The notes under the pieces: model-generated
Told to the model about the DNA's origin: nothing
What the model saw: only the letters and a program-made list of their open reading frames with translations
Database searches by the model: none
Assembly: GCF_000407485.1 (NCBI RefSeq)
Contig: NZ_ASWD01000001.1
Location: 496,001-560,000 of the forward strand
DNA: 64,000 nt
DNA from: Enterococcus pallens ATCC BAA-351
GTDB lineage: Bacteria > Bacillota > Bacilli > Lactobacillales > Enterococcaceae
Reading direction: 5' to 3'
Program-made: the position numbers and the translations under genes
Part shown: one piece after another, positions 1,978 through 64,000 of the stretch
Layout of the letters: each line of letters starts with the position of its first letter
Numbering within the stretch: position 1 is the stretch's first letter

Positions 1978-3750
1978 CTAAATCAAATGATTATCTTTCA
2001 AAATATCACTGATGTATGTTCCTTCTACCTTTTTCACAAAACCTTCTACCAGCTTGCGTTCCACAAATGGCATATCCATTTCAGTCAGTTTCTTTTTATC
2101 GGTTAGATAATACACGGAATTTGCCAGGGTGCGCAAATCATAGGCCGAAGCAAATACTTCTGGCACACCTCGTTCTACATCTAAAAGCTGATAAACAGCC
2201 TCCATGGCAGTACGTACCGAATATTCTGTCGTAAATACAGTATCTCGTTGCGTTTCAGCGAAGTTTCCAATAAAAGCTAAATTGGTTGAACCATTAGGAA
2301 TAACCAATGGTCGATCACCAGGTTCTCGCAGCATAAAGTACGAAGTAATAAACGGCATATAAACCGGAATCACTTTGCAAGAGTTCTCAGAGAAGCGTAC
2401 AATGTCATCTTCAGGTACTCCCAAGTGATACATCAGCTCCTGAACAATTTCTTTACCTGAACATTCTTCAATCGGCTTCTTAATGTAATTCCCTGGGGTA
2501 TTAGAAAGCAAACCATACACCCAGGTAACGGTCTGTTGATCCTTTTGTTCCTTAAAATGTGGTTGACGATGGGTCGCAAAGCTCATTAACCAGTTGGAAT
2601 CTTTAATAGTAATAATTCCGCCGGTAACAATATGCCCCGTCCGCAATTTTCTTTGCGTTAATCGACTAATGTATGGTTCAATGTCAAAGTTTTCCCACGT
2701 TACAGTTGCTGAAACAAACCAGCTTTCATCTGGCAAATTGTCGCAAAAGACTTCTGGATGACCAAATTCAGGTGATTGTTTAGCTAAATTTTTCCATAGA
2801 TTCCAGCTGCCGCCTAATTCATGAGTTATAGGCGCTGGTGTATTATGATCTCCTTCGGTGGAGCTTTCAGTAATGGAACCATTCGTAACAAAAACCAAGT
2901 CCTTTTGAGTTAATTCAATCGTTTCTGCATTGCCAGCCTTAGTCAAACTAATTTTTTTAGCCGTTTTGCTATCGGATTGAATATCGACCTCAATAGCTTC
3001 GATTTTAGTTTCGTATTGGAAATCTACACCTTGGTCCTCTAGGAAACTTAGTAACGGTTTCACCAATGACTCATATTGATTGTAGCGCGTAAATTTTAAA
3101 GCTGTAAAATCCGGCAGTCCTTTGATGTGATGAATGAAACGCATCACGTAGCGGCGCATTTCTATTGCTGAATGCCATTTTTCAAAGGCAAACATTGAAC
3201 ACCAGTACAGCCAAAAATTTGATGCAAAAAATTCTTCGCCAAAAACATCCTCTATCCGCTTACCAATTAATTGATCTTCTGAAGTCATAAAGAGTTCAAC
3301 CAATTCTCGTTGGGCTTTTTTCGACAATGTAAACTCTCCATCATCTTCAACTCGCTCTCCGCGATTATGGATAATCCGACAGTTGGAAGAATTAGGATCA
3401 TCATGGTCCAACCAATAAAATTCATCCAAAACCGAAGCATCCTCAACCTCTAATGAAGGGACCGAACGAAATAAATCCCATAAACATTCAAAATGATTTT
3501 CCATTTCTCGTCCACCACGAGTAACAAACCCATCATGTGGAATGAATTTACCATCTAGCGAACCACCAGAAAGGGATAATTCTTCAAAAATATGGATATG
3601 CTCCCCCTTCATATGCCCATCACGAATCAAAAATACAGCCGCCGCCAAACCAGCCAGACCCGCGCCTACAATATAAGCATTTTTATCATCGACACCTTCT
3701 GGTTTTCTGCTTTTGGCAAAGGCCTCGTAATTGCCATTTGTATATCTCAT
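1978..3750 (-). CDS. ohyA: Oleate hydratase (MCRA family)
   Basis: The 590-residue protein matches the myosin-cross-reactive-antigen family in length and motifs. An FAD-binding GAGLAGL (residues 29-35) begins the protein, FEE and GGSLDG follow around residues 55-67, and [16 protein letters not shown] and the C-terminal [10 protein letters not shown] stretch are typical of the family. These enzymes add water to the cis-9 double bond of unsaturated fatty acids, producing hydroxy fatty acids, and use FAD structurally. The frame is open for 33 codons upstream, but ATG 3750 has AAGGAGGG at a good distance and gives the family N-terminus [11 protein letters not shown]. It is probably cytoplasmic or membrane-peripheral, with a detoxification role by family knowledge. 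Confidence 0.93.
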
Positions 3751-8093: not shown

Positions 8094-8159
8094 AGAACCG
8101 AACGATTATTTGTGTAGATTCCTGTTTTAAGGAACCCTAACTTATAATCGTTCGGTTCT
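8094..8159. terminator. Bidirectional terminator-like inverted repeat
   Basis: Perfect 16-bp arms (AGAACCGAACGATTAT at 8094-8109 and its complement at 8144-8159) enclose a 34-nt loop that holds a small TTCC/GGAA hairpin. It separates the convergent membrane-protein and epimerase genes. Confidence 0.65.
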
Positions 8160-8165
8160 CTACTT

Positions 8166-8837
8166 TTAAACTGTGGCCTTTGCTAAATGTTCATTTAACA
8201 ACGCAACAGATTTCTTGATATCATCATCCAAGTTAAACAATCCACTGGAGCCCACAATCAAAATATCCGCTCCTGCTTCTAACATAACCGGATAAGTTTT
8301 CTCGTTGCAGGAACCGTCAATTTGAATTAAAAATGACAGGTTATTTTCCTCGCGATAATTCTTCAGCCAACGAACTTTGTCTAAACTCTCTACGATGAAT
8401 TTCTGTCCAGCAAACCCAGGGTCGACTGTCATCACCGTTACGATATCAATTAAATGAAGATAGTCTAAAATCAAATTCATCGGTGTCTCGGGGTTCAGAA
8501 CGACACCCATTTTTTTGCCTTGTGCGTTAATTGTTTGACTCACTCGAAAGGCATGACCATTTAGATGCTCCGCATGAATGCTGATTACTTCGACACCTAA
8601 ATTCAATAATGGTTCAACATATTCTACTGGATTTGTTACCATCAAATGCGCATCTAGTGGAATTTGAGTATGCGCTTGTAATTGTTCGATGAACCATGGT
8701 GATAGCGTCATATTGTTTACATAGTGTCCATCCATAATATCGATATGATAATAATCCATTACCGTATTTAAGTAAGCAATCTGTTCACTGAATTTACCTA
8801 AATCCATACACATTAGTGAAGGTGATAATTGTACCAT
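8166..8837 (-). CDS. alsE: D-allulose-6-phosphate 3-epimerase-like (ribulose-phosphate epimerase family)
   Basis: The 223-residue TIM-barrel protein aligns by eye with E. coli AlsE along its length: SPSLMCMDLGKF at the start, HIDIMDGHYVNNMTLSPWF, HLMVTNPVEY, VTVMTVDPGFAGQKFI and IQIDGSCNEKTY. It keeps the metal and catalytic residues of the family (His in HIDIMDGH, Asp in MDG and VDPG, His in HLMV). AlsE interconverts D-allulose-6-phosphate and fructose-6-phosphate. It is the last gene of the PTS operon. AAGGAGGAAAG precedes ATG 8837. Plain ribulose-5-phosphate epimerase activity cannot be excluded. Confidence 0.85.
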   Translation of the reverse strand: MVQLSPSLMCMDLGKFSEQIAYLNTVMDYYHIDIMDGHYVNNMTLSPWFIEQLQAHTQIPLDAHLMVTNPVEYVEPLLNLGVEVISIHAEHLNGHAFRVSQTINAQGKKMGVVLNPETPMNLILDYLHLIDIVTVMTVDPGFAGQKFIVESLDKVRWLKNYREENNLSFLIQIDGSCNEKTYPVMLEAGADILIVGSSGLFNLDDDIKKSVALLNEHLAKATV

Positions 8838-8850
8838 CAGCTTTCCTCCT

Positions 8851-9588
8851 TTAGTTAACCGATTGTCCACCGTCAACAACCATCTCGGCACCAGTCATAA
8901 AGCGTGACCCCTCTGTGGCTAGAAAAACAACTGCATCGGCAACCTCATCAGCTGTACTGATTCGATTGTGTAAAGGAATCCGCTGGCCCATTTCCTCCTT
9001 AGTGCGATCGGTAGCTTGAGCCGCATGTTCGGCCATTTGAGTATTGATATAAGCAGGATGTACGGAATTTACCCGAATACCTCGCGGTGCTAACTCGATT
9101 GCAGCAGCTTTCGTTAGTGCTGCCACTGCTCCTTTAGAAGCTGCATAAGCAATGCGGTTTTTTGATCCTAGAAAGGAAGCAATAGAAGCAGTGTTGATGA
9201 CACTGCTGCCGTCACCTAATAAAGGAAGCATTTCTTTAATTCCTAAAAACATACTTAATGTATTTACGGCCAGCGTTTTCTCCCACAGCTCAACCGTTGT
9301 ATCTTCAATCGTAGCAATTTTAAAAATTCCGGCATTGTTAAACAGTACATCCAACTTTTCTGCTTTTTCCTGAATAGTTGCTGCTGCTTTTTGCCAAGCC
9401 GCTTCATCAGTAACATCAAAACACATTGGGTAAATACTGCTGGAATCATAATTTTCTGCTAACAGATCCAAGCGTTTTTGATTGTTATCATTCACAAATA
9501 CCATAAAATCTTGATCAATCAATTTTTCCACGACGGCCTGTCCCAGACCGCCAGCGGCACCGGTAATCATTGCGGTTTTCTTTTTCAA
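8851..9588 (-). CDS. Short-chain dehydrogenase/reductase
   Basis: The 245-residue classical SDR has the cofactor motif TGAAGGLG (residues 9-16), NNAG (about 86-89), a catalytic Ser in INTASIASFLG and the YAASK catalytic pair (about 148-152). It ends with MTGAEMVVDGGQSV, as in 3-oxoacyl reductase/glucose dehydrogenase-type members. The initiation codon is TTG at 9588, with GAGGG 5 nt upstream. Gene order in the PTS operon suggests oxidation or reduction of a sugar or polyol intermediate. The substrate is unknown. Confidence 0.88.
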   Translation of the reverse strand: MKKKTAMITGAAGGLGQAVVEKLIDQDFMVFVNDNNQKRLDLLAENYDSSSIYPMCFDVTDEAAWQKAAATIQEKAEKLDVLFNNAGIFKIATIEDTTVELWEKTLAVNTLSMFLGIKEMLPLLGDGSSVINTASIASFLGSKNRIAYAASKGAVAALTKAAAIELAPRGIRVNSVHPAYINTQMAEHAAQATDRTKEEMGQRIPLHNRISTADEVADAVVFLATEGSRFMTGAEMVVDGGQSVN

Positions 9589-54422: not shown

Positions 54423-55040
54423 TTATTTCATTAACCAGTTAAACAGCCCTTCCATCCCTAAGGCAATGACTACACATAAAAACGCGCCCACAAAGATAAT
54501 CGGTTCACCGCCAGTAATGTTGATTCCTCTAAGAATGATATCACCTAAGCCGCCAGCTCCGACAAAAGAACCAATTGTAGTAATCCCCACTGAAATGACT
54601 AAAGCATTTCTAATTCCGGCTAGAATAACCGGTGCTGCCAGCGGAATTTTGATTAAATACAGCACTTGAAATCGACTCATGCCAATCCCGCGGGCACTGT
54701 CGATGTAGACCGGATCAACATTATTCAATCCAACATAAGTATTGTTTACAATTGGCAGCAGTGAATACAAGACAACTGTCGCAATGACTGTGTTTTTCCC
54801 AAGCCCCATTAAAATCAGCAAAATCGTCAGCATACCAATGGACGGAATTGTCTGGACCACATTGATAAAGCCAATCACAAAGGTTGCCGCCTTTTTATTG
54901 TCGGATAGAAAAATACCAATGGGAAAACCAATTAGACAGGTTAACACCACTCCAACGATAGAAATGTAAATGTGACTTAAGAACTGGCTAATAATATACG
55001 AGGAGTTATCACTCAAGTAATTCATTAAATTCTGGATCAT
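54423..55040 (-). CDS. opuCD: Osmoprotectant ABC transporter permease
   Basis: The 205-residue protein has about five TM segments and the permease EAA-like loop (DSARGIGMSRFQVLYLIKIPLAAPVILAG in parts). VVQTIPSIGMLTILL matches OpuCB/OpuCD. Its start overlaps opuCC by 4 nt. It is the last gene of the four-gene operon and probably forms the channel as a heterodimer with the other permease. Confidence 0.9.
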   Translation of the reverse strand: MIQNLMNYLSDNSSYIISQFLSHIYISIVGVVLTCLIGFPIGIFLSDNKKAATFVIGFINVVQTIPSIGMLTILLILMGLGKNTVIATVVLYSLLPIVNNTYVGLNNVDPVYIDSARGIGMSRFQVLYLIKIPLAAPVILAGIRNALVISVGITTIGSFVGAGGLGDIILRGINITGGEPIIFVGAFLCVVIALGMEGLFNWLMK

Positions 55041-55948
55041 TGGGTTTCCTCCTCAAAATAATGATGGGCCTCTAAAAATTGGCGGGCAATTAATGCGGGC
55101 TCCAACAGCTGACTATCCGATTCATCATTCATCCGCTGCATCGCTTCCGTGTCAATTGTATTTTCCAGACGTTCCAACAGTTCCTTCAGCTCCGGATTTT
55201 TCTTTAAGGCTTGATCAGAAACTACTAGACTACAGGTATAAGGTGGGAAAAACTGCCGATCATCCTCCAGCATCACTAAGTCATAGCTGCCTACTCGACC
55301 ATCCGTAGAGTAACCTAGAATGACATCCAACTCATTGGCAACCAAAGCATCATACAGCAACCCTACCTGCATCGGATAGACTCGTTTAAAGCGAGTATCG
55401 TATTCTTCAGTGTAGGCTTGATAGCCGTCGCCCTCTCGTTTGTACCAGGTTTGATCGGTTCCTAAGCTAAACTGATCTGCACATTTTTGCAGGTCACTTA
55501 CCTTGGACAGCTGGTACTTCTCAGCAGTTTCTTTGGTTACCATGAAGGTAAATTGATTGGAAAAACCATAGCTTGGAAACCATTCAAAGTTGTAACGTTT
55601 TTGAAATTCGTCTTGAACAATTGTTAAAGCTTTATCCGGATCTTTTTCAATCGGTAAATTCAAGGTTCCCACTAGATCCGTTCCCGTATAGCGCGTCGAA
55701 GCAATATCCAGATCTCCTCGCTCCATGGCTGCATGCATCAGATTGGCAGAAGCTAAATTATTCAAATAGACGACCTCTTTGTCGGTAGAATGCTTCAAAA
55801 ATTCCACCACGATATTGCCTAAAATCTGCGATTCTGAGGTTACGCCGCCGCTCACCGTGATTTGATCCTTGCGATGAGAAACATTGGAAAAGACAAATAG
55901 ACCAAACAAGGCAATAAACAGGAGAAAGACACTAATTTTCTTTTTCAT
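55037..55948 (-). CDS. opuCC: Osmoprotectant ABC transporter substrate-binding protein
   Basis: The 303-residue protein contains the OpuAC/QAT-type fold: ITVSGGVTSESQILGNIV, LASANLMHAAMERGDLDIAS, YTGTDLVGTL and VYPMQVGLLYDAL, VILGYSTDGRVGSYDLVMLEDD. It binds glycine betaine, carnitine, choline or a related compound. The N-terminal hydrophobic segment (VFLLFIALFGLFVFS) lacks the lipobox Cys usual in the family, so it may be held by an uncleaved anchor. GTGAGGAATGTAG precedes the ATG. Confidence 0.9.
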   Translation of the reverse strand: MKKKISVFLLFIALFGLFVFSNVSHRKDQITVSGGVTSESQILGNIVVEFLKHSTDKEVVYLNNLASANLMHAAMERGDLDIASTRYTGTDLVGTLNLPIEKDPDKALTIVQDEFQKRYNFEWFPSYGFSNQFTFMVTKETAEKYQLSKVSDLQKCADQFSLGTDQTWYKREGDGYQAYTEEYDTRFKRVYPMQVGLLYDALVANELDVILGYSTDGRVGSYDLVMLEDDRQFFPPYTCSLVVSDQALKKNPELKELLERLENTIDTEAMQRMNDESDSQLLEPALIARQFLEAHHYFEEETQ

Positions 55949-55957
55949 CTACATTCC

Positions 55958-56581
55958 TCACCCTCGATCCACTGCTAAATGACCTTCAACATAACGCAAA
56001 ACAGCATCGGTTCCTAAAGCCAAAAGCGTAATGGGAATTGTCCCCATCATAATCAAATCCATGCGATACAAGGTTAACCCATTGAAAATAAAATCGCCCA
56101 AACCGCCGGCCCCAATGTAAGCAGCCAACGTCGTCCAGGAAATTACGTAAACTGCTGAGACCTTAATTCCGGAAATAATTACACTGGAGGCTAAAGGCAG
56201 CTCAATTTGCAACAGCCGCTGCCACTTCGACATGCCCATACCTTTAGCTGCGTCCAAATAAGTTGCGTCAACAGACTGAATCCCTACATAGGTATTGCGT
56301 AAAATCGGCAGCAGCGAATACAAAAACAATGCGGCAATTGCCGGTACTTTACCGATTCCTAGAAAGGGCACCATGATCGACAGCAGTGCCAAAGAGGGAA
56401 TCGTTTGAAAAAAACCTACTATATTAATAATCGTTTCTGAGCCTTTTTTGATTCGAGTTAATAAAGCGCCCAGTGGTACTGCTACTAGCGTTCCTAAAAG
56501 AATAGCGCTAAAAGAGATATAAAAATGCTCCCATAATTTCAAAAGAATTTCGATCCCATATTGCTTCCAAAAAATTTCCAT
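55958..56581 (-). CDS. opuCB: Osmoprotectant ABC transporter permease
   Basis: The 207-residue permease has GFFQTIPSLALLSIMVPFLG and DAAKGMGMSKWQRLLQIELP, parallel to its partner. ATG 56581 is preferred because AGGTG lies 6 nt upstream, although a GTG three codons earlier abuts opuCA. It is the second gene of opuCABCD. Confidence 0.9.
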   Translation of the reverse strand: MEIFWKQYGIEILLKLWEHFYISFSAILLGTLVAVPLGALLTRIKKGSETIINIVGFFQTIPSLALLSIMVPFLGIGKVPAIAALFLYSLLPILRNTYVGIQSVDATYLDAAKGMGMSKWQRLLQIELPLASSVIISGIKVSAVYVISWTTLAAYIGAGGLGDFIFNGLTLYRMDLIMMGTIPITLLALGTDAVLRYVEGHLAVDRG

Positions 56582-56590
56582 CTGCTTCAC

Positions 56591-57703
56591 CTACTTCAGC
56601 TTGTCGTAAATCAAGGACACCAAAGAAGATCGGGTCAAGATTCCCACAAGACAATTTTCATCATCAACCACCGGCAGATATTTCAGCTCCATATTAAACA
56701 ACGGATCCACTACATCTGACAGCTTCTCATTTTGATTGACACTGGCAGTCTCCGTACGCATGATTTCATAAATGTTGGCAGCTTTATTAATGTTGCGATC
56801 GACATCCTTAATATCAATGAAGCCTTTTAAGTGCTGTTCATCGTCCACCACCAGCAAGGTATCGACTTTTTTGTGGGTCATTTGGCGAATCGCTTCAACG
56901 ATCGATTTGCTTAAAGAGATGGCTTCGACTTGAGACTTCATCAGATCCACTACTCGCAGCTCATTTTCCACATAGGTTTGTTTTTTTCGTTTGCCCAACA
57001 GCTCATCCACAAAGGAGTTGGCTGGTTTTTGGATGATATTGCTTGGTGTGTCGTACTGCACTACTTTTCCGTGATCCATAATAATAATTTTGTCTGCCAG
57101 CTTTATAGCTTCTTCCATATCATGGGTGACAAAAACCACTGTCTTTTGCATCTCCTGCTGCAGCCGTTTAATCATCTCCTGTAAAGCATCTCGGGTGATA
57201 GGATCAAGGGCGCCAAAGGGTTCATCCATTAAAATAATGTCCTGATCGGCGGCAAGTGCTCGAATTACTCCGATTCTTTGCTGCTGTCCGCCGGAAAGAT
57301 TTTTCGGTTTGCGCTCTAAATAATCCAACGGCAGCTCCACCCGCTCAATCAGTCTTTCTGCGATGCCCTGCTTTTGGCTATCCGTCCATTTCAACAGCTT
57401 AGGAACAATCATAATATTCTCGCGAATAGTCAGATGGGGAAACAGTCCAATGTTTTGAATCACATAGCCGATTTTCCGCCGCAATTCATCCTCATTTAGA
57501 CTGGTAGTCTCTTTTCCATTAATTTTGATACTGCCGCTGGAAGGTTCCACCATCCGGTTAATCATCCGCAATAAGGTGGTTTTTCCGCTGCCGCTGGTAC
57601 CAATCACACAGATAAACTGATTGTCTTCAATCGTCAGATTCAACCGTTCAACTGCTGCTGGTGCATTTCCGTATTTTTTCTCCACCTCAATAAACTCAAT
57701 CAT
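56591..57703 (-). CDS. opuCA: Osmoprotectant ABC transporter ATPase with CBS domains
   Basis: The 370-residue protein has Walker A GTSGSGKTT (about 35-43), the signature LSGGQQQRIGV, Walker B DIILMDEPFGALDP, and two C-terminal CBS motifs (about 255-365, LLVVDDEQHLKGFIDIKDVD; LPVVDDENCLVGILTRSSLV). CBS domains in OpuA-type ATPases sense ionic strength. AAGGGGCAG precedes the ATG. It is the first gene of the operon. Strong terminators of the upstream kinase operon separate it from that operon. Confidence 0.93.
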   Translation of the reverse strand: MIEFIEVEKKYGNAPAAVERLNLTIEDNQFICVIGTSGSGKTTLLRMINRMVEPSSGSIKINGKETTSLNEDELRRKIGYVIQNIGLFPHLTIRENIMIVPKLLKWTDSQKQGIAERLIERVELPLDYLERKPKNLSGGQQQRIGVIRALAADQDIILMDEPFGALDPITRDALQEMIKRLQQEMQKTVVFVTHDMEEAIKLADKIIIMDHGKVVQYDTPSNIIQKPANSFVDELLGKRKKQTYVENELRVVDLMKSQVEAISLSKSIVEAIRQMTHKKVDTLLVVDDEQHLKGFIDIKDVDRNINKAANIYEIMRTETASVNQNEKLSDVVDPLFNMELKYLPVVDDENCLVGILTRSSLVSLIYDKLK

Positions 57704-57727: not shown

Positions 57728-57823
57728 TTTAAAAAAGCTTTTCGAACTGGTGAACAAGTTGGAAAAGCTTTTTTAAATGACAAAAAGGCTAAAGCCGCTG
57801 GGGGCTGTTAGTCCTTTTTGTCA
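57728..57823 (-). terminator. Tandem terminators after the FGGY-kinase operon
   Basis: First on the minus strand: 11-bp arms TGACAAAAAGG (57778-57788) and complement (57813-57823) around a GC-rich inner hairpin. Second: perfect 16-bp arms at 57728-57743 and 57762-57777 with a TTTTTT stretch. Together they end the catabolic operon before opuCA. Confidence 0.8.
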
Positions 57824-57835
57824 CTACTTTCTTTG

Positions 57836-59278
57836 CTATGCTTCTGGATGCAATATGGCAAAGGTCTTTTCTAAAATTTTGTCCGTATGAGTCGTCAAGC
57901 TTTGATAAACTTCTTCATTTAATCGCTTGTATATCTCAACATTTTCTGGAATCGGTGTAAAGACGTCCTTCACCTTCACCATCTTTTCCACCGCTTCTTC
58001 GTAAGTATTATAAATACCTAAGCCAACTGCTGCATTAATTGCTGCCCCGACACTAGCACTGCCATTAACCACATTGCGTTTAACCGGCAGATTGAACACG
58101 TCCGCAAAAATCTGCATCAACAAATCACTATTCGATCCACCGCCAGTCACGATCACTTCATCAATGGTTTTCCCTAATTCCTCTGTCATATTGGTCACAT
58201 TGTTTTTCATGGTATAAGCAATACCTTCTAAAATCGACCGATACATATAACGATAGTCGTGATGGGCATTAAAGCCGATCATCACACCTCGCTTGTAGGG
58301 CTCCCAAGGATTAGCCAGCCAATCTAAAACAGTCATTAAGCCATCACTGCCGGCTGGAACATTCTGGGCCTGTTCGTTCAAGTATTCTTCTTCGGAAATG
58401 CCCTGATAATTGGAGCGAATACTGATTTTTTCACCTAATAAATCCTTGAACCAGGATACCGTCCACATCCCACGACGAATTCCGTATCCTTCATAGGCAT
58501 ATTTTCCCGGAATCGAAGACATTATTCCCCAATAATTTACGGGATTGTCCGGCATTTCCGTTCCAGTCACCATACTGCTAATGTACGTTCCCAAGGAGAC
58601 AAAGGCACTCGTGTCGCGAATCAGTCCCGCGCCTAAGCCTTCTACCGCCTTATCGCTGGTTGTCGCAAACAACGGCAGTCCTGCCGGCAGTCCCGTTTTC
58701 TGACTGGCTTCTTCTGTAATGTATCCCAGCACATCTCCGGGTTTTACTGGATCAAACAGCATTTCCCGCGGCAGGTTGTAGTTTTCCAACACCTCTGGAT
58801 CAGTTGACCAATCCCAGTTGGCATAATCCACCGGCCATTGTCCAAAGTGATTGCCGATATTGTCTTTAAATTCTCCAGTCAACCGATGAGTCAAGTAACC
58901 ATTGGTTGAGGTTACATATTGCACCTCTGGATTATCCTGAACATGCGGACTAGCGGTTCGTTTGTCCATCCAGCTGATAATCGGCTGAGCCAATGAACCA
59001 TCCTTTTTCAACAGTACTCGGCAGCAGCGAATGGAGCCTAAACCAATCCCGACGATATTTTCTTTACGAATCCCAAACTGCTCCATTGCTTTTTGCGAAG
59101 CTGCACACAACGATTCCCACAGGTCATCGCCAGGATGCTCCACTACCACACCTTCAGAAAGATGCATCGGTCGCAGATTTTCTTTGCCTTCTCCTACTAC
59201 ATTTCCTTCCAAATCGAAAATCACAATTTTGGTACTTTGGCTGCCGCCGTCAATACCGACAATATATTTCTTTTCCAT
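57836..59278 (-). CDS. FGGY-family carbohydrate kinase
   Basis: The 480-residue protein starts MEKKYIVGIDGGSQSTKIVIFD, the FGGY N-terminal ATP motif, and has IISWMDKRT (substrate region), GLFATTSDKAVEGLGAG-like LPLFATTSDKAVEG and C-terminal EVIVTGGGSNSDLLMQIFADV with VNGSASVGAAINAA. Xylulokinase-like, but the substrate (pentulose, hexulose or polyol) is not determined. ATG 59278 has AAGGAG upstream. It is the last gene of an operon with an ETF-linked oxidase and an SDR and thus should phosphorylate the oxidised product. Confidence 0.9.
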   Translation of the reverse strand: MEKKYIVGIDGGSQSTKIVIFDLEGNVVGEGKENLRPMHLSEGVVVEHPGDDLWESLCAASQKAMEQFGIRKENIVGIGLGSIRCCRVLLKKDGSLAQPIISWMDKRTASPHVQDNPEVQYVTSTNGYLTHRLTGEFKDNIGNHFGQWPVDYANWDWSTDPEVLENYNLPREMLFDPVKPGDVLGYITEEASQKTGLPAGLPLFATTSDKAVEGLGAGLIRDTSAFVSLGTYISSMVTGTEMPDNPVNYWGIMSSIPGKYAYEGYGIRRGMWTVSWFKDLLGEKISIRSNYQGISEEEYLNEQAQNVPAGSDGLMTVLDWLANPWEPYKRGVMIGFNAHHDYRYMYRSILEGIAYTMKNNVTNMTEELGKTIDEVIVTGGGSNSDLLMQIFADVFNLPVKRNVVNGSASVGAAINAAVGLGIYNTYEEAVEKMVKVKDVFTPIPENVEIYKRLNEEVYQSLTTHTDKILEKTFAILHPEA

Positions 59279-59321
59279 GAAGTTCTCCTTCACTCAATAG
59301 ATTTTTGATTGCAGTCTGTTG

Positions 59322-60098
59322 TTAGCGCACTAAGAAGCCGCCATCAACAGTCAGGATATGACCATTTACAAAATGAGAAGCCTCTGAAGCTAAGAAGACT
59401 GTTGCTCCCATTAAATCAGCCACATCTCCCCAACGTCCTTCTGGTGTATGGTCCACAATCCATTTATTGCGTTCAGGATCATCAATCGATGCTTGAGCTA
59501 CCGCTGTTTTGAAGTAGCCTGGTGCAATTCCGTTTACTTGAATATTGTATTGCGCCAATTCGTCACAATAAGCTTTGGTTAAACCAGCCAAGCCATGTTT
59601 AGAGGCCGCATATGCTGGTGCCCATTGACCGCCTAAGAAAGAGAACAAGGAACAAATGTTGATGATTTTACCGCTCTTTTGTGGAATCATTACTTTAGCT
59701 GCCTCATGACTCATATCAAAAGCTGCTGTTAGATTAATGCTGATGGTTGGGTCCCATTTATCGCGACCATAGCTTAAGACATCATCGCAAGGACAAATTC
59801 CAGCACAGTTAACCAAAATGTCCACTGAACCAAACTCTTTGACACAGGTATCAATAATTTCTTGCGGCACACCGTCTTTCGTGATATCAGCGTGCATGTA
59901 GAAGGTTTTCGCGCCTCGCTCCTGCAGCGTTTGATTAAACGCTTCATCATCTGGCATAATTGACGGCATAAAGATATTCGCTCCAGCCTCCGCTAAAGCC
60001 AACGAAAATGCTTGACCCAAGCCAGTGTTTCCGCCAGTGACAATCGCGTTTTTTCCTTCAATTGCGAACATACCCATGTTAAAGTCTTTAATTTCCAT
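59322..60098 (-). CDS. Short-chain dehydrogenase (gluconate/deoxygluconate dehydrogenase-like)
   Basis: The 258-residue SDR has TGGNTGLG (about 20-27), NCAG (about 101-104), a catalytic Ser in NICSLFSFLG and YAASK (about 165-169), and ends HILTVDGGFLVR. It resembles 2-deoxy-D-gluconate/gluconate 5-dehydrogenases. AAGGT lies 6-7 nt before the ATG. It is between etfA and the kinase and should interconvert a keto sugar and its alcohol with NAD(P). Confidence 0.9.
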   Translation of the reverse strand: MEIKDFNMGMFAIEGKNAIVTGGNTGLGQAFSLALAEAGANIFMPSIMPDDEAFNQTLQERGAKTFYMHADITKDGVPQEIIDTCVKEFGSVDILVNCAGICPCDDVLSYGRDKWDPTISINLTAAFDMSHEAAKVMIPQKSGKIINICSLFSFLGGQWAPAYAASKHGLAGLTKAYCDELAQYNIQVNGIAPGYFKTAVAQASIDDPERNKWIVDHTPEGRWGDVADLMGATVFLASEASHFVNGHILTVDGGFLVR

Positions 60099-60153
60099 TT
60101 TTTTACCTTCTCTTCTTTATATTTTGAAGCGGCTGCTTCAATTTTTTACTAAA

Positions 60154-61080
60154 TTACTGGTTTAACCGTGCCGTCAGTCTCTCGGCAAATTCCGCGGCAT
60201 CACCGATTACACTAATGTTAGCTAAATAATTCATCGGAGCACCCTTGTCTGTATTGACCGAAATGATGTCCGTCACATTTTTCAGTCCTTCCACATGCTG
60301 CATTGAGCCATAAATGCCTAAGGCCAGATAAAGTTGTGGACTGACCGTTTTACCGGACTGCCCCACCTGAATTTCTCGCGGGGCTCGATTTTGCTCCACC
60401 AGCGGTTTGGAGACAGCTACGGCTCCATTTAGCTGGTGGGCTAATTCAGTGAGTTGTTTTACCTCGGCGCTATAGCCTGCTCCCGCTGAGACTAATACCT
60501 TGGCCTCACGAATATCTTGATTTTTGGCTTGTTCCTCAACCGCCAGCACTTCGATTGACGACGCTTTCAATTCTGTCACAGGAAAATCAATACGCTCTGG
60601 GATCTTTGAAAGCTCTTTGGCATGAAAAACATTTGGATGTACACTGGCCATAATTGGCGTGGAATCACAAAGGATACTTGCCAATATATTGCCGGAAAAA
60701 GCTGGTCGAATTAGCTTGCGACCCTTCTCATCCACTTCAATCGCTGTAATATCTGCCACTAACCCGGCTCTCAAGCGCATCGCCAATCTCGGTGCCACCA
60801 TTCGGCCAAAATCCGTCGCCAAAATAATTACACTGTCAAAGTGCCAGTTGTTTTGAACCTGTTCTAAAATATCCGTCACTACCCGACTATCTCTTGTTTG
60901 AATGGTCGGATCATCGACACAAATCAATGAATCGAAGCCTTTCAGTTCTTTGTTCGGCAAATTTATGCCTAGACCGAATACTTCTAATTCATCCTCACCC
61001 GCCAGTCGTCTAGCAGCTTCAATCAGATCCACGGAGTAATTGACGGCCTCTTGATCAATCAAAATGAGTGCTTTAAACAT
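60154..61080 (-). CDS. etfA: Electron transfer flavoprotein alpha subunit
   Basis: The 308-residue protein has the EtfA N-terminal half (LILIDQEAVNYSVDLIEAAR) and the C-terminal FAD domain (REIQVGQSGKTVSPQLYLALGIYGSMQHVEGLKNV in parts; ISVNTDKGAPM). Two deviations from the usual motif are seen: SAGAG replaces GGRG, losing the conserved Arg, and GIYGSMQH replaces GISGAIQH. FAD contacts may therefore differ. ATG overlaps the etfB stop (TAATG). It takes electrons from the adjacent FAD-linked oxidase. Confidence 0.9.
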   Translation of the reverse strand: MFKALILIDQEAVNYSVDLIEAARRLAGEDELEVFGLGINLPNKELKGFDSLICVDDPTIQTRDSRVVTDILEQVQNNWHFDSVIILATDFGRMVAPRLAMRLRAGLVADITAIEVDEKGRKLIRPAFSGNILASILCDSTPIMASVHPNVFHAKELSKIPERIDFPVTELKASSIEVLAVEEQAKNQDIREAKVLVSAGAGYSAEVKQLTELAHQLNGAVAVSKPLVEQNRAPREIQVGQSGKTVSPQLYLALGIYGSMQHVEGLKNVTDIISVNTDKGAPMNYLANISVIGDAAEFAERLTARLNQ

Positions 61081-61868
61081 TACAAGTACCCCTTTTCTGT
61101 TAAAAATTGGACCACTGTTTCAATTCCCGCATCATCCACTGCAACTTCCTGGTTTTCCACCTTCGTTCGTTTAGCCACTATATTTTTAATTACTTTAGTG
61201 GGTGAACCTTTACGACCAATCTCATCTTGAGCAAGCTTTAGCTCTTCGTTTGTTACTAGAGAGAATTGAGCATCGACATTTTTGTCCATGTTTTCATATC
61301 TAACGAAGCCTAAACGCAAATTCATTTGATGGGTCACACTCAGCACACAAGGAGTTGGAATTTTTAAGCGGAAAACTCGTTCCTCCTGCACTGCTTTGGC
61401 GATTATATAGTCGCTAGCGGTTTCTTCAATTTCGGAAATATTGGAAAATTGATCAACTGCTAAAAGTTCGGCTACCTGTGGACCAATGTGCCCTGTGCCA
61501 CCATCTAAGGTGTGGGTCCCTGTAAGAATCAGATCATATTTCTGCTGAGACAAATAGCCGGCTAAAATAAAGCTGGTTGCCAACGAGTCGCTGCCGGCGA
61601 ACTGCCGATCATTTAACAAAACAGCCCGGTCAGCCCCTAAACGAATCAGATCCTTTAACTCCTTTTCCACCTTGGAAGGACCCATTGAAACAATCTCTAC
61701 CTCAACGGAAGGCTGCTGCTTCTTTTTTTGCAGCGCCCAAGCTACCGCATTGCGATCATCTGGATTTAAAATCAGCTTGGATTTTTCTCGATTGATTTTG
61801 TCCGTCTTGTAGTCATATTCAAATTGTTCTGTATCTGGAACGTATTTAATGAGACAAATAATTTTCAT
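61080..61868 (-). CDS. etfB: Electron transfer flavoprotein beta subunit
   Basis: The 262-residue protein has MKIICLIKYVPDTEQFEYD, LNPDDRNAVAWALQKKK, VSMGPSKVEKELKDLIRLGADRAVLL in parts and the nucleotide-binding GTHTLDGGTGHIGPQVAELL. It matches EtfB/FixA. Whether it belongs to the bifurcating group (a second FAD in EtfB) is not decided by eye. It is encoded 69 nt downstream of the oxidase gene with a hairpin between. Confidence 0.92.
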   Translation of the reverse strand: MKIICLIKYVPDTEQFEYDYKTDKINREKSKLILNPDDRNAVAWALQKKKQQPSVEVEIVSMGPSKVEKELKDLIRLGADRAVLLNDRQFAGSDSLATSFILAGYLSQQKYDLILTGTHTLDGGTGHIGPQVAELLAVDQFSNISEIEETASDYIIAKAVQEERVFRLKIPTPCVLSVTHQMNLRLGFVRYENMDKNVDAQFSLVTNEELKLAQDEIGRKGSPTKVIKNIVAKRTKVENQEVAVDDAGIETVVQFLTEKGYL

Positions 61869-61896
61869 CGTAACCGCTTCCTAACCTTTGGAAAAG

Positions 61897-61930
61897 TTCC
61901 TTCAAGAACGATGCTGCGTCCTTGAAGGAA
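61897..61930. repeat. 10-bp inverted repeat between oxidase and etfB genes
   Basis: TTCCTTCAAG (61897-61906) and CTTGAAGGAA (61921-61930) form a perfect stem with a 14-nt loop in the intergenic gap. The minus-strand tail CTTTTCC is weakly T-rich. It may attenuate, or mark an RNA-processing site. Confidence 0.5.
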
Positions 61931-61937
61931 AACGAAA

Positions 61938-63425
61938 CTATTTTTGATACTTGTAGCCTTCTTGAACTGGATAAATATTGCCGTAGTTCATAATTCCTTT
62001 TGGATCAAAGGCTTCTTTTAAGGTTTCCAGCATATAATAAGCTGATTGGTGCTCTTGCTTGGTCCACTCATTACGATACTTGCCGATTCCGTGATGGTGA
62101 CACATTGAGCCGCCTAGCTTCAGCGTTTCTTCTACAATAATTGCTTGAATTGGATGATGATAAATTCGCATTTCATCTTCTGGTTCGCAATTAATGTCGT
62201 AGTTGTAAACAAAGTACATGTTGGTTCCGTTAATGTAGCTATGAGAAGAATGTCCACCCAACATAGTTAAATCATTTGCCCGTGGATATTCATTGCGAAT
62301 CCGATCAATGACATTGTTGTAAATCTTAGTAATCGTTTCCCAATCAGCAGAAACCTCGGTAGTGTAGCCATCATGCTTGTCGTTGTCGATCATACCTTGC
62401 ACTTCGTCGTCGATGGTTTGCTGCGTCCAGTTTAATTGATTAAACCAGTTAGCAATCAGCTGACTATCTACTTGCTTGTAAATGCCATCCTTGAATTTTT
62501 CAACCGCTTCTTCAATGCCTTTACCGGTTGCTTCAACGATACCTTCAGGACCTTCCGCCATAAAAATCAGTACGCATTTTCCTTCATAGAAATGATAGAA
62601 GTGCTGACGCGCATCCTCCGGTGAATAGGTCCGAGCGACGGATGGACGGTAACCGTTAGTAATTACTTCCCGCAATACTTTGATTCCTGTTTCTACATCG
62701 TCAACTAGATAACCAAAGAATTTATTATTGTCTGGATAGTATTTGAATATCTTCACAGTCACTTCAGTAATGTAGCAAAGGGTTCCTTCGTTTCCAATCA
62801 CAATGTGACGAATATCTGGTCCGCCAGCACGACGGGAGACATTCTTAATGCGAGAAATGTGACCGTTCGGGAAAACACACTCTAAACCAACGACCATATC
62901 TTCAATTCCGCCATATAATGTTGAGAACTGACCAATCGAACGCGTCGATACTAAGCCGCCATATTGTGCCACTGGTTTTGATTGAGGAGAATGTCCGGTC
63001 GTATAACCGATCTTGCGTAATTCATCTTCCAAGTCCTGCAATCGAACACCAGCTTCCACTGTTGCTTGCATGTTGTAAGGATCAATTTTAATGATTTTGT
63101 TCATTTTTGAGCCATCAATAACTAAGGCCAAATCCTTCCAGTTTTCCAGGCCGCCTTCTGTCGCTGTTTTTCCGCTTCGAGGAATTACGTTGATGCCGTT
63201 CTCGTTGGCATACATCAATAGATTCTTAACTTCCTCAGCGTTCTTAGGATACACAACCGCGGTTGGTAATGGATTGTCCAATACTCGTTTCGCCTTGGCA
63301 TATTTGCGGTAGCGGTCAGAGGAAGCATCATATAACGCCTCATAATCGGTAACAATCTGATCTTCTGAAACAATTTTTTTCACATCTGCAACAATAGCTT
63401 CTTTTACTAATGTATCGGAATTCAT
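61938..63425 (-). CDS. FAD-linked oxidase (GlcD/alkyl-DHAP-synthase type, VAO family)
   Basis: The 495-residue protein has a PCMH-type FAD domain (PTAVVYPKNAEEVKNLLMYANENGINVIPRSGKTATEGGLE in parts, about 50-95; GHSPQSKPVAQYGGLVSTRSIGQFSTLYGGIEDMVVG in parts) and a C-terminal FAD-oxidase domain with GGSMCHHHGIGKYR (about 445-458), the His cluster seen in alkyl-DHAP synthase-like enzymes. It has no membrane segment or Fe-S motif. It heads an operon with etfBA, an SDR and an FGGY kinase, so it should oxidise an alpha-hydroxy compound or polyol and pass electrons to ETF. GGAGC lies 7-8 nt before the ATG. Confidence 0.9.
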   Translation of the reverse strand: MNSDTLVKEAIVADVKKIVSEDQIVTDYEALYDASSDRYRKYAKAKRVLDNPLPTAVVYPKNAEEVKNLLMYANENGINVIPRSGKTATEGGLENWKDLALVIDGSKMNKIIKIDPYNMQATVEAGVRLQDLEDELRKIGYTTGHSPQSKPVAQYGGLVSTRSIGQFSTLYGGIEDMVVGLECVFPNGHISRIKNVSRRAGGPDIRHIVIGNEGTLCYITEVTVKIFKYYPDNNKFFGYLVDDVETGIKVLREVITNGYRPSVARTYSPEDARQHFYHFYEGKCVLIFMAEGPEGIVEATGKGIEEAVEKFKDGIYKQVDSQLIANWFNQLNWTQQTIDDEVQGMIDNDKHDGYTTEVSADWETITKIYNNVIDRIRNEYPRANDLTMLGGHSSHSYINGTNMYFVYNYDINCEPEDEMRIYHHPIQAIIVEETLKLGGSMCHHHGIGKYRNEWTKQEHQSAYYMLETLKEAFDPKGIMNYGNIYPVQEGYKYQK

Positions 63426-63452: not shown

Positions 63453-63480
63453 GGAAGCGCTTTTCCTAGGACTTAGTATA
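63453..63480 (-). promoter_or_regulatory. cre-like site and -10 box of the FAD-oxidase operon
   Basis: GGAAGCGCTTTTCC (63453-63466) contains the AAGCGCTT core of CcpA sites. It lies just downstream of TATACT (63480-63475 on the minus strand), a roadblock position. No good -35 box was found, which suggests activator dependence. Confidence 0.55.
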
Positions 63481-63546: not shown

Positions 63547-63572
63547 TAAATATGGAAAATTTTCCATATTTA
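63547..63572. promoter_or_regulatory. 26-bp perfect palindrome, operator candidate for the RpiR regulator
   Basis: The half-site TAAATATGGAAAA is followed directly by its exact complement. It lies midway between the divergent FAD-oxidase operon and the RpiR gene. Confidence 0.7.
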
Positions 63573-63634
63573 TTGCTTTGATCAGCTATTTTGTGCTATG
63601 CTGATCTTGTACTTTATAGTAGGTGGTGAGGAAA

Positions 63635-64000
63635 ATGCGTTTGCAATTGGATCGATTAAACGAGCTGGAAACCCAAATACATCAAAAGCTAAGCGAAATC
63701 AGTCAAGAACGGCCAACCATGACGATTACTGAAGCAGCTGAAGCAGCCGGCGTTTCTCCCTCAAAAATATCTAAGTTTGTAAAAAAGATCGGTTTTTCAG
63801 GTTATAAGGAATACTATCGCTTTTTAACTGGCAAAGAGTTAGTCAAGAAGAAAAAGCTGAACTCTGAATTTGCCAGAATTCAGGACTTTATGGAAAATTT
63901 CGACCACGAAACGGTCAGCTATCTGGCAGATCAGATCAAAACCCACGACAAAATTATTTTGTTTGGCTATGGTCCTACTAGTATTTGTATGGAATATTTT
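63635..64000 (+). CDS. RpiR-family regulator, cut by window edge
   Basis: About 122 residues are visible. They start MRLQLDRLNELETQIHQKLS and include the RpiR HTH (MTITEAAEAAGVSPSKISKF, VKKIGFSGYKEYYRFL) and the start of the SIS domain (IILFGYGPTSICMEYF). AGGTGGTGAG is upstream of the ATG. Divergent from the ETF-oxidase operon across the palindrome, it probably controls it in response to a phosphorylated intermediate. Confidence 0.85.
   Translation, partial: MRLQLDRLNELETQIHQKLSEISQERPTMTITEAAEAAGVSPSKISKFVKKIGFSGYKEYYRFLTGKELVKKKKLNSEFARIQDFMENFDHETVSYLADQIKTHDKIILFGYGPTSICMEYF

Follow-up and report, generated by a model that had tools for sequence, protein, structure and literature searches.

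What is the substrate of a gene set that joins a flavin adenine dinucleotide (FAD)-linked oxidase and an electron transfer flavoprotein (ETF) to a short-chain dehydrogenase/reductase (SDR) and an FGGY-family kinase? Five such genes lie on the minus strand at the end of the 64-kb stretch of Enterococcus pallens ATCC BAA-351 analysed here (64,000 nucleotides, hereafter the window), taken from a genome of 5.44 Mb coded G000. They encode OX, an FAD-dependent dehydrogenase of 495 amino acids that resembles alkyl-dihydroxyacetonephosphate synthase (AGPS) (61938-63425; PF01565 FAD_binding_4 and PF02913 FAD-oxidase_C), EtfB, nearest to EtfB of the bifurcating type (61080-61868; PF01012), EtfA (60154-61080; PF01012 and PF00766), the SDR (59322-60098; PF13561) and the kinase (57836-59293; PF00370 and PF02782, both above gathering cut-offs), which has a GTG start and an alternative in-frame ATG at 59278 (57836-59278). 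Since the gaps between them measure 69, -1, 55 and 28 bp, transcription as a single unit is plausible. A first-pass annotation of this DNA had described these genes as an operon with a cre-like site and a divergent RpiR regulator, and had proposed that the oxidase turns a polyol or sugar acid into a keto form, which the SDR and the kinase then process. Its observation is confirmed, gene order and coordinates being right, and its interpretation is partly supported; the region that it delimited (57836-63425) is correct but leaves outside an ATP-binding cassette (ABC) importer (54423-57703), the regulator and an MFS transporter.

The answer that we favour, and hold to be probable, is that the module catabolises a quaternary-ammonium (betaine-like) compound with a hydroxylated, probably glycerol-type or polyol, part. 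From gene content and sequence comparison we infer this substrate class, together with an order of reactions, an ether cleavage and NAD as the final acceptor of electrons that pass an ETF of the bifurcating type.

Distribution of the gene set and its counterpart in Escherichia coli

A search with OX alone over public genome contigs recovered 67 loci, which span Enterococcus, Vagococcus, Lactococcus, Clostridia, relatives of Bacillus and Paenibacillus, and Erysipelotrichaceae, as well as Spirochaetes, Chloroflexi, Flavobacterium, Pseudovibrio and metagenome-assembled genomes. The nearest named relatives of the oxidase belong to Enterococcus sp. 665A and 669A (98%) and E. rivorum (93%). Of these loci, found with OX only, 66 also gave a tblastn match to the SDR and 65 one to the kinase, the misses (both genes in L023, the kinase in L029) sitting at contig ends; this co-occurrence analysis, of the kind suggested with the first-pass annotation, places the grouping of OX, SDR and kinase beyond chance. 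Clustering of open reading frames (ORFs) located a complete or partial ETF pair nearby in 48 loci, and tblastn added a further two (L023 and L064); an RpiR gene was found in 50/67 and an MFS gene in 51/67. Within the source's own family, taken as Enterococcaceae, OX was detected at E <= 1e-100 in 17 of 105 genomes, one of which (G106) has OX at 52% identity only, and the module is accessory in this family. The coupling of an ETF to a kinase had been presented as an oddity of a lactic-type bacterium. A pathway peculiar to such bacteria is rejected, because the module is present in several phyla (Clostridia, Bacillus, Paenibacillus, Spirochaetes and Chloroflexi among its carriers) and has a counterpart in E. 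coli K-12.

In the latter, OX corresponds to YgcU (57% identity), the SDR to YgcW (63%) and the kinase to YgcE (60.5%), while the MFS transporter matches YqcE at 30% and EtfA/EtfB match the flavoproteins YgcQ/YgcR at only 23-24%. The locus ygcN-ygcO-ygcP-ygcQ-ygcR-ygcS-ygcU-ygcW-yqcE-ygcE also differs in its extra ygcN and ygcO, which we take to be FixC/FixX-like, and in the anti-terminator gene ygcP. A literature search covering titles and the beginnings of abstracts found no reported function for ygcU, ygcW or ygcE; ygc genes are mentioned on a few occasions in PMC3946193, PMC5493296 and PMC10897898. The main text of a study of quaternary amines in Citrobacter, in which the carnitine proteins are Cai/Fix, does not contain 'ygc' (PMC12482172). 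In four loci (L055, L056, L059 and L061) OX is followed by a different EtfB/EtfA pair and by a second, GlcD-like oxidase (OX2); their clade groups with E. coli YgcU in the OX tree (SH-aLRT 99, long branches), which holds 61 rows including the window and YgcU and was built without L002, L003, L008-L011, L065, L067, L069 and rows shorter than 430 amino acids. A gene for a SurE-family phosphatase lies after or near the kinase in five loci (L038, at 8147-8935, L017, L022, L049 and L065).

The flavoenzyme and its redox partners

In sequence, OX is closest to AGPS, and not to lactate/glycolate dehydrogenases or the usual sugar and polyol oxidases. Its best match in the PDB is mammalian AGPS (4bby, 174 bits, E 3.4e-50), followed by AGPS 2uuu (152 bits), the putative oxidoreductase 3pm9 (98.5 bits), 9qgz, a glycolate oxidase/D-lactate dehydrogenase (92.8 bits), and, more weakly, LctD (73 bits) and D-2-hydroxyglutarate dehydrogenase (63 bits). 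Residues R419, Y578 and HHH of AGPS correspond to R265, Y404 and H443-H445 of OX, whose motif reads HHHGIGK, and are invariant in a 40-row OX alignment (positions counted on the AGPS alignment); R419 and Y578 are the positions changed in AGPS entries 4bc7 and 4bca, according to their titles. AGPS is a redox-neutral synthase, from which OX differs by its Gln148 in place of Asp303 (counted on the alignment), by the invariant His392 and His395, by its partner ETF and by its catabolic-type operon. Such a sequence does not favour the action on a plain polyol or sugar acid that had been assumed for the oxidase. The OX alignment and a 25-row kinase alignment were made without L058, L038 and L064 (stop codon in the stretch) and without L070; the latter alignment also omits L044 and L047, and some kinase ends were reset.

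Could OX instead be a dehydrogenase of D-2-hydroxy acids (lactate, glycolate, 2-hydroxyglutarate) working with an ETF in the manner of LctBCD, and joined to an unrelated kinase by operon rearrangement? LctBCD of Acetobacterium woodii (7qh2) likewise combines an FAD-oxidase with EtfB and EtfA partners, the ETF of the window closely resembles LctB/LctC and further ETFs of the bifurcating type, 3pm9 and 9qgz rank next after AGPS, and OX matches the TIGR00387 glcD model, albeit at 143.8 bits against a cut-off of 567.9. The predicted structure leans the same way: the AlphaFold model of OX (pLDDT 84.9) aligns with mLDHD at Z 32.5 (root-mean-square deviation 3.1, 433 residues aligned, 19% identity), with AGPS at Z 30.2 (3.0, 456 residues, 25% identity) and with LctD at Z 30.1, this fold being common to D-2-hydroxy-acid dehydrogenases. 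By fold alone the modelled OX is therefore somewhat closer to D-lactate dehydrogenase than to AGPS, and its kinship with AGPS is drawn from sequence and motifs, not from fold. In comparison with the OX2 paralogues, however, OX does not keep the H-x6-H and E-H-G motif, presumably the metal-binding motif of the GlcD/LctD D-2-hydroxy-acid dehydrogenases, and has HHHG; OX2, its neighbour in four loci, has H-x6-H in 4/4 and E-H-G in 3/4. Furthermore, the SDR and the kinase, additional here in comparison with LctBCD, stand together with OX in nearly all 67 loci. Taken together, these data make the hydroxy-acid explanation most improbable, and a D-lactate/glycolate oxidase was demoted as a candidate on the missing metal motif despite the slightly nearer fold of mLDHD. 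Because that motif is lost, an oxidase acting only on lactate or glycolate, the case in which the first-pass annotation would have withdrawn its own proposal, appears unlikely.

The best PDB matches of EtfB (5ol2, 4kpu, CarD, 7koe and LctB, at 137-102 bits, all others at <=48 bits) are ETFs that we take to be of the bifurcating type, and those of EtfA are headed by LctC (135 bits) with 1efv still at 108 bits, a small margin. As judged from sequence, the closest solved relatives of EtfB are thus of the bifurcating type, those of EtfA less clearly so, and the electrons would pass to NAD through such an ETF. Since the second ETF pair of the genome adjoins an acyl-CoA dehydrogenase and a family III CoA-transferase, the ETF of the operon looks dedicated to it; an ETF shared with that acyl-CoA dehydrogenase, which has its own pair, was rejected. 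Electron delivery via an ETF-quinone oxidoreductase was demoted because PF05187 has no match in the source genome, although the same search was also blank on an E. coli control, so that FixC-like proteins may escape it.

The SDR stays below the KduD equivalog cut-offs, its nearest families being KduD and gluconate 5-dehydrogenase, and the kinase reaches no NCBIfam equivalog cut-off (the best, XylB, gives 188.8 against 380.25 bits). The kinase model (pLDDT 90.1) matches glycerol, xylulose, gluconate and autoinducer-2 (AI-2) kinases all at Z 33-39 among the matches listed, and its substrate is therefore not readable from the fold.

Transporters and regulatory DNA beside the module

Directly downstream of the kinase, after 132 bp that contain a terminator-like hairpin, four genes of the same strand encode a ProV/OpuCA-like ABC ATPase with CBS domains (56591-57703; PF00005 and CBS; TIGR01186 passed with 379.4 against a cut-off of 326.6 bits), an OpuB/C-type permease (55958-56590; PF00528), an OpuBC/OpuCC-like substrate-binding protein (55037-55948; PF04069) and a second permease (54423-55040; PF00528). 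The OpuAC domain and the ProV-type ATPase mark this predicted ABC system (54423-57703) as an OpuC-type importer of quaternary amines. The binding protein matches 3ppn, a glycine betaine/carnitine/choline-binding protein, at 314 bits and 6eyg at 297 bits, and its Tyr87, Tyr127, Tyr191 and Tyr213 align with tyrosines of both and may form an aromatic cage for the quaternary ammonium, but NTY corresponds to NQF and Tyr191 is Phe in some Enterococcaceae.

Across the 67 loci, an OpuC-type binding protein occurs in 24 and a BCCT transporter (PF02028) in 20, with one of the two in 44 and both in none, a lack of overlap whose naive probability is 1.7e-5. To set these counts against genomic background, transporters were searched in 45 genomes (the source genome and those of the locus set, L037 left out), counting BCCT matches of >=300 bits only (78 matches). 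A BCCT gene lies at the locus in 17/45 genomes against 0.34 expected; a single such match is present in 13 genomes, and in 7 of these it is the gene at the locus. OpuAC lies at the locus in 15/45 genomes against 0.78 expected, or in 9/39 against 0.65 when Enterococcaceae and Lactococcus are collapsed. The 22 loci outside this search are mostly near-duplicates or same-species copies, and also include L032, L043, L047, L050, L058 and L066, in which no BCCT gene was seen, and L063, which has one. The values for enrichment, overlap and slots treat genomes as independent although they are related, to which a count on the OX tree gives a partial answer: with short-contig loci scored as having no transporter, the minimum number of changes is 9 for the ABC label and 13 for BCCT, of which 6 and 8, respectively, are forced by well-supported branches. 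From these change counts, the pairing with OpuC or BCCT has been gained or lost repeatedly.

The position after the kinase is itself informative. Where the order is SDR-FGGY-X, X is ProV in 9 loci, BCCT in 7 and MFS in 3, and where it is OX-FGGY-X, X is MFS in 8 and BCCT in 4, the rest in both cases being other genes or contig ends. That three unrelated transporter families share one slot suggests one substrate. OpuC-type and BCCT families are known for quaternary ammonium compounds or similar zwitterions and are classical osmolyte importers; the resemblance to OpuC/OpuB and BCCT osmoprotectant uptake extends to the binding protein of the window and the PF02028 genes of other loci, and the difference is that here the transporters are tied to a catabolic gene set and do not stand alone.

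Two further arrangements of such genes were observed. In L031 and L035 the OpuC-type binding protein has as neighbours a histidine kinase of the Cache type and a response regulator of the sigma-54 type (Pfam on the copies of the L031 genome). In the source genome, L083:36-7349 (G000:C4:233035-240348) holds a glycyl-radical enzyme nearest to the choline trimethylamine-lyase CutC, at 701.8 bits against a cut-off of 1050, followed by activase-like and MFS-like ORFs (by eye), a protein with a pyrroline-5-carboxylate (P5C) reductase dimerisation domain and a BCCT transporter; this cluster may represent a further pathway for quaternary amines.

The divergent regulator proved to be an HTH_6 gene of the RpiR family, which runs on the plus strand from 63623 to 64000 and continues outside the window (L069:4623-5339 in full), followed there by the MFS gene (L069:5655-6917). 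The reported cre-like site, a catabolite-responsive element for CcpA, is likewise present as GGAAGCGCTTTTCC (63453-63466, minus strand), at the point where transcription of the operon presumably begins; a TATACT -10-like box (63475-63480) lies just upstream of it. Scanning with a single fixed cre consensus gave no useful signal, and conservation was judged by eye in an alignment: of 16 Enterococcus/Vagococcus upstream regions, source included, 14 retain the core AGCGCTT and two diverge, L006 (AACGCTT) and L013 (AACGTTT). Lactococcus L062 lacks it. The palindrome TGGAAAATTTTCCA (63553-63566, without strand), also upstream of OX, recurs with <=2 changes in 16/16 of these regions, has no further copy within the window at <=1 mismatch, and is presumed to be the RpiR operator.

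The stretch that separates the kinase from the ABC operon contains two hairpins in succession (57731-57816). The terminator-like one, AAGGACTAA..GCC..GGC..TTTAGCCTTTTT (57782-57816, minus strand), has a conserved bulged stem and may be a regulated terminator; it recurs in six of the seven relatives read with identical gene order (L002, L003, L004, L005, L012 and L052), the seventh, L013, bearing another hairpin at this place. A genome-wide element was rejected, the pattern being found once in the genome, and so was action of GlpP on the hairpin, since the sole PF04309 match of the genome sits elsewhere. That match, the only one to the glycerol 3-phosphate (G3P) antiterminator in the genome, lies away from the operon, upstream of a GlpA-like FAD dehydrogenase ORF recognised by eye (L089/L090; G000:C2:674394-674912).

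The proposed substrate and its rivals

Hints at a glycerol-type moiety come from the AGPS-like enzyme, from the glycerol/xylulose-type kinase and from the antiterminator, which together would indicate such a part in the substrate. Members of the G3P-responsive antiterminator family (PF04309, as checked for L014) are encoded in 11/67 loci, the E. coli ygc locus holds the annotated anti-terminator ygcP, and in the E. avium group the antiterminator gene precedes an SDR gene and the ABC genes in the same direction. The combination recalls the GlpK-GlpD/GlpO pathway of glycerol use, with which the module shares an FGGY kinase and an FAD dehydrogenase besides these nearby antiterminator genes; it differs in the flavoenzyme family, in the ETF as acceptor and in the betaine transporters.

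Under the favoured reading, the OpuC-type ABC system would bring in the substrate in this genome, and a BCCT or MFS carrier would do so elsewhere. The compound would be oxidised by the NAD-linked SDR and by OX, which would pass its electrons to the ETF of the module, and phosphorylation of the hydroxyl part by the FGGY kinase would trap the compound. The leading specific candidate is the deacylated head group of a betaine lipid, glyceryl-trimethylhomoserine. Betaine lipids join glycerol to the betaine by an ether bond (PMC5063337), and homoserine betaine occurs free, as an osmolyte (PMC13403184). OX might open the glycerol ether, with triose phosphate entering glycolysis and the betaine part being exported or degraded. 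In its full form, this proposal is an ETF-linked oxidative etherase, an AGPS-type flavoenzyme run catabolically on the glyceryl-trimethylhomoserine ether, for which the glycerol part would be made ready by the kinase and the SDR and triose phosphate recovered, with a lyase branch in Bacillus-type genomes and ygcUWE as the E. coli K-12 version; we offer it tentatively, as possible though rather unlikely in all its parts. No such pathway was met in the literature search, which, in titles and the beginnings of abstracts, also yielded no report on how betaine lipids or homoserine betaine are catabolised.

The lyase branch concerns four Bacillus-type loci, which encode an aspartase-like lyase (in L033 at 2148-3491) and an aldehyde dehydrogenase (ALDH) resembling betaine-aldehyde dehydrogenase. 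In these genomes, released homoserine betaine would be oxidised to N,N,N-trimethylaspartate, from which the lyase would yield fumarate and trimethylamine. The lyase clade (54-100% identity, the next full-length match at 43%) occurs in 7 of 32 genomes searched, all seven among the 10 searched from the Bacillus-type OX clade and none among the 22 others; the ALDH adjoins the lyase in 7/7, a zinc alcohol dehydrogenase comes next in 4, and OpuC-type genes lie within about 5 kb in G015, G020 and G023. A further lyase-like sequence of G010, in two pieces (51% and 69% identity), was not used. The numbering of aspartase AspB was assigned to the lyase motif, an assumption with which the spacing of 321/324/326 and 142/188 agrees. 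In AspB the amine group is contacted by His188 and Asn142, while the pocket positions varied by design are Thr187, Met321, Lys324 and Asn326 (PMC11744663). All seven lyases have Ser or Ala for Asn142 and Phe for Met321, with Lys324 and Asn326 kept, while a paralogue in L086 retains Asn and Met; read after the fact, such a pocket might suit the bulkier trimethylated aspartate. In Paenibacillus, L085:4631-18623 gathers a zinc alcohol dehydrogenase, an ALDH, an aspartase-like lyase, OpuC-type genes, a response regulator, a histidine kinase, an RpiR gene and the SDR within about 14 kb, and in a lyase-bearing Bacillus-type genome a mandelate racemase/enolase-family protein (L084:9088-10233) stands beside OpuC-type genes.

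Several observations, to which the fold comparison above belongs, weigh against a betaine-like substrate or its proposed route. Neither an OpuC-type nor a BCCT gene was found in 23/67 loci, about nine of which are short contigs, and none in the stretch read of the E. coli K-12 ygc locus; no ETF was seen in the available DNA of 17/67 loci by ORF clustering and tblastn; and more distant OpuAC proteins at other loci do not retain the putative cage tyrosines found in the binding protein of the window. The ALDH/lyase extension is limited to one Bacillus-type clade, His188 of aspartase is Cys in the seven lyases and also in an ordinary-looking paralogue, so that this change is not diagnostic, and no gene for release of the lipid head group was recognised. 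The BCCT and OpuC genes themselves could serve osmoprotection only. This last point is part of an explanation by ordinary catabolism of a polyol, sugar acid or rare sugar, in which OX and SDR would isomerise a polyol or aldonate, the kinase would trap the product, and betaine transporters would be co-located for osmoprotection. FGGY kinases act on polyols and ketoses, the families nearest to the SDR, though below cut-offs, are KduD and gluconate 5-dehydrogenase, and RpiR, a cre-like site and an MFS transporter are typical of sugar operons; the loci devoid of betaine transporters are as this explanation would have them. A plain polyol or sugar-acid pathway, as also proposed in the first-pass annotation, nevertheless fails to explain why OpuC and BCCT genes are associated with the module repeatedly and in mutual exclusion and take the place of the MFS gene in the same slot, nor would it lead one to expect an AGPS-like oxidase or ALDH-lyase neighbours at Bacillus-type loci, and we judge it unlikely.

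The same transporters, as classical osmolyte importers, would fit a function in stress, with the module producing or recycling a polyol-betaine compatible solute that is not used as a carbon source. The cre-like site and the presumed RpiR operator point instead to carbon-source control, and the kinase, the ETF-linked oxidase and the Bacillus-type lyase are degradative in type, which renders osmolyte handling very improbable. Catabolism of a quaternary-ammonium compound with a hydroxylated part is thus the reading that we retain.

The component families of this module are known, and the gene set as a whole, for which the literature search found no function, is common to E. coli. Our analysis offers a concrete, testable substrate class for a gene set of several phyla, including ygcU, ygcW and ygcE of E. 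coli. If the betaine-lipid reading is true, bacteria would have a route for using betaine lipids from algae, fungi and lower plants and a biological means, based on an enzyme of the AGPS type, of cleaving a glycerol ether, and some of them would also be a source of trimethylamine.

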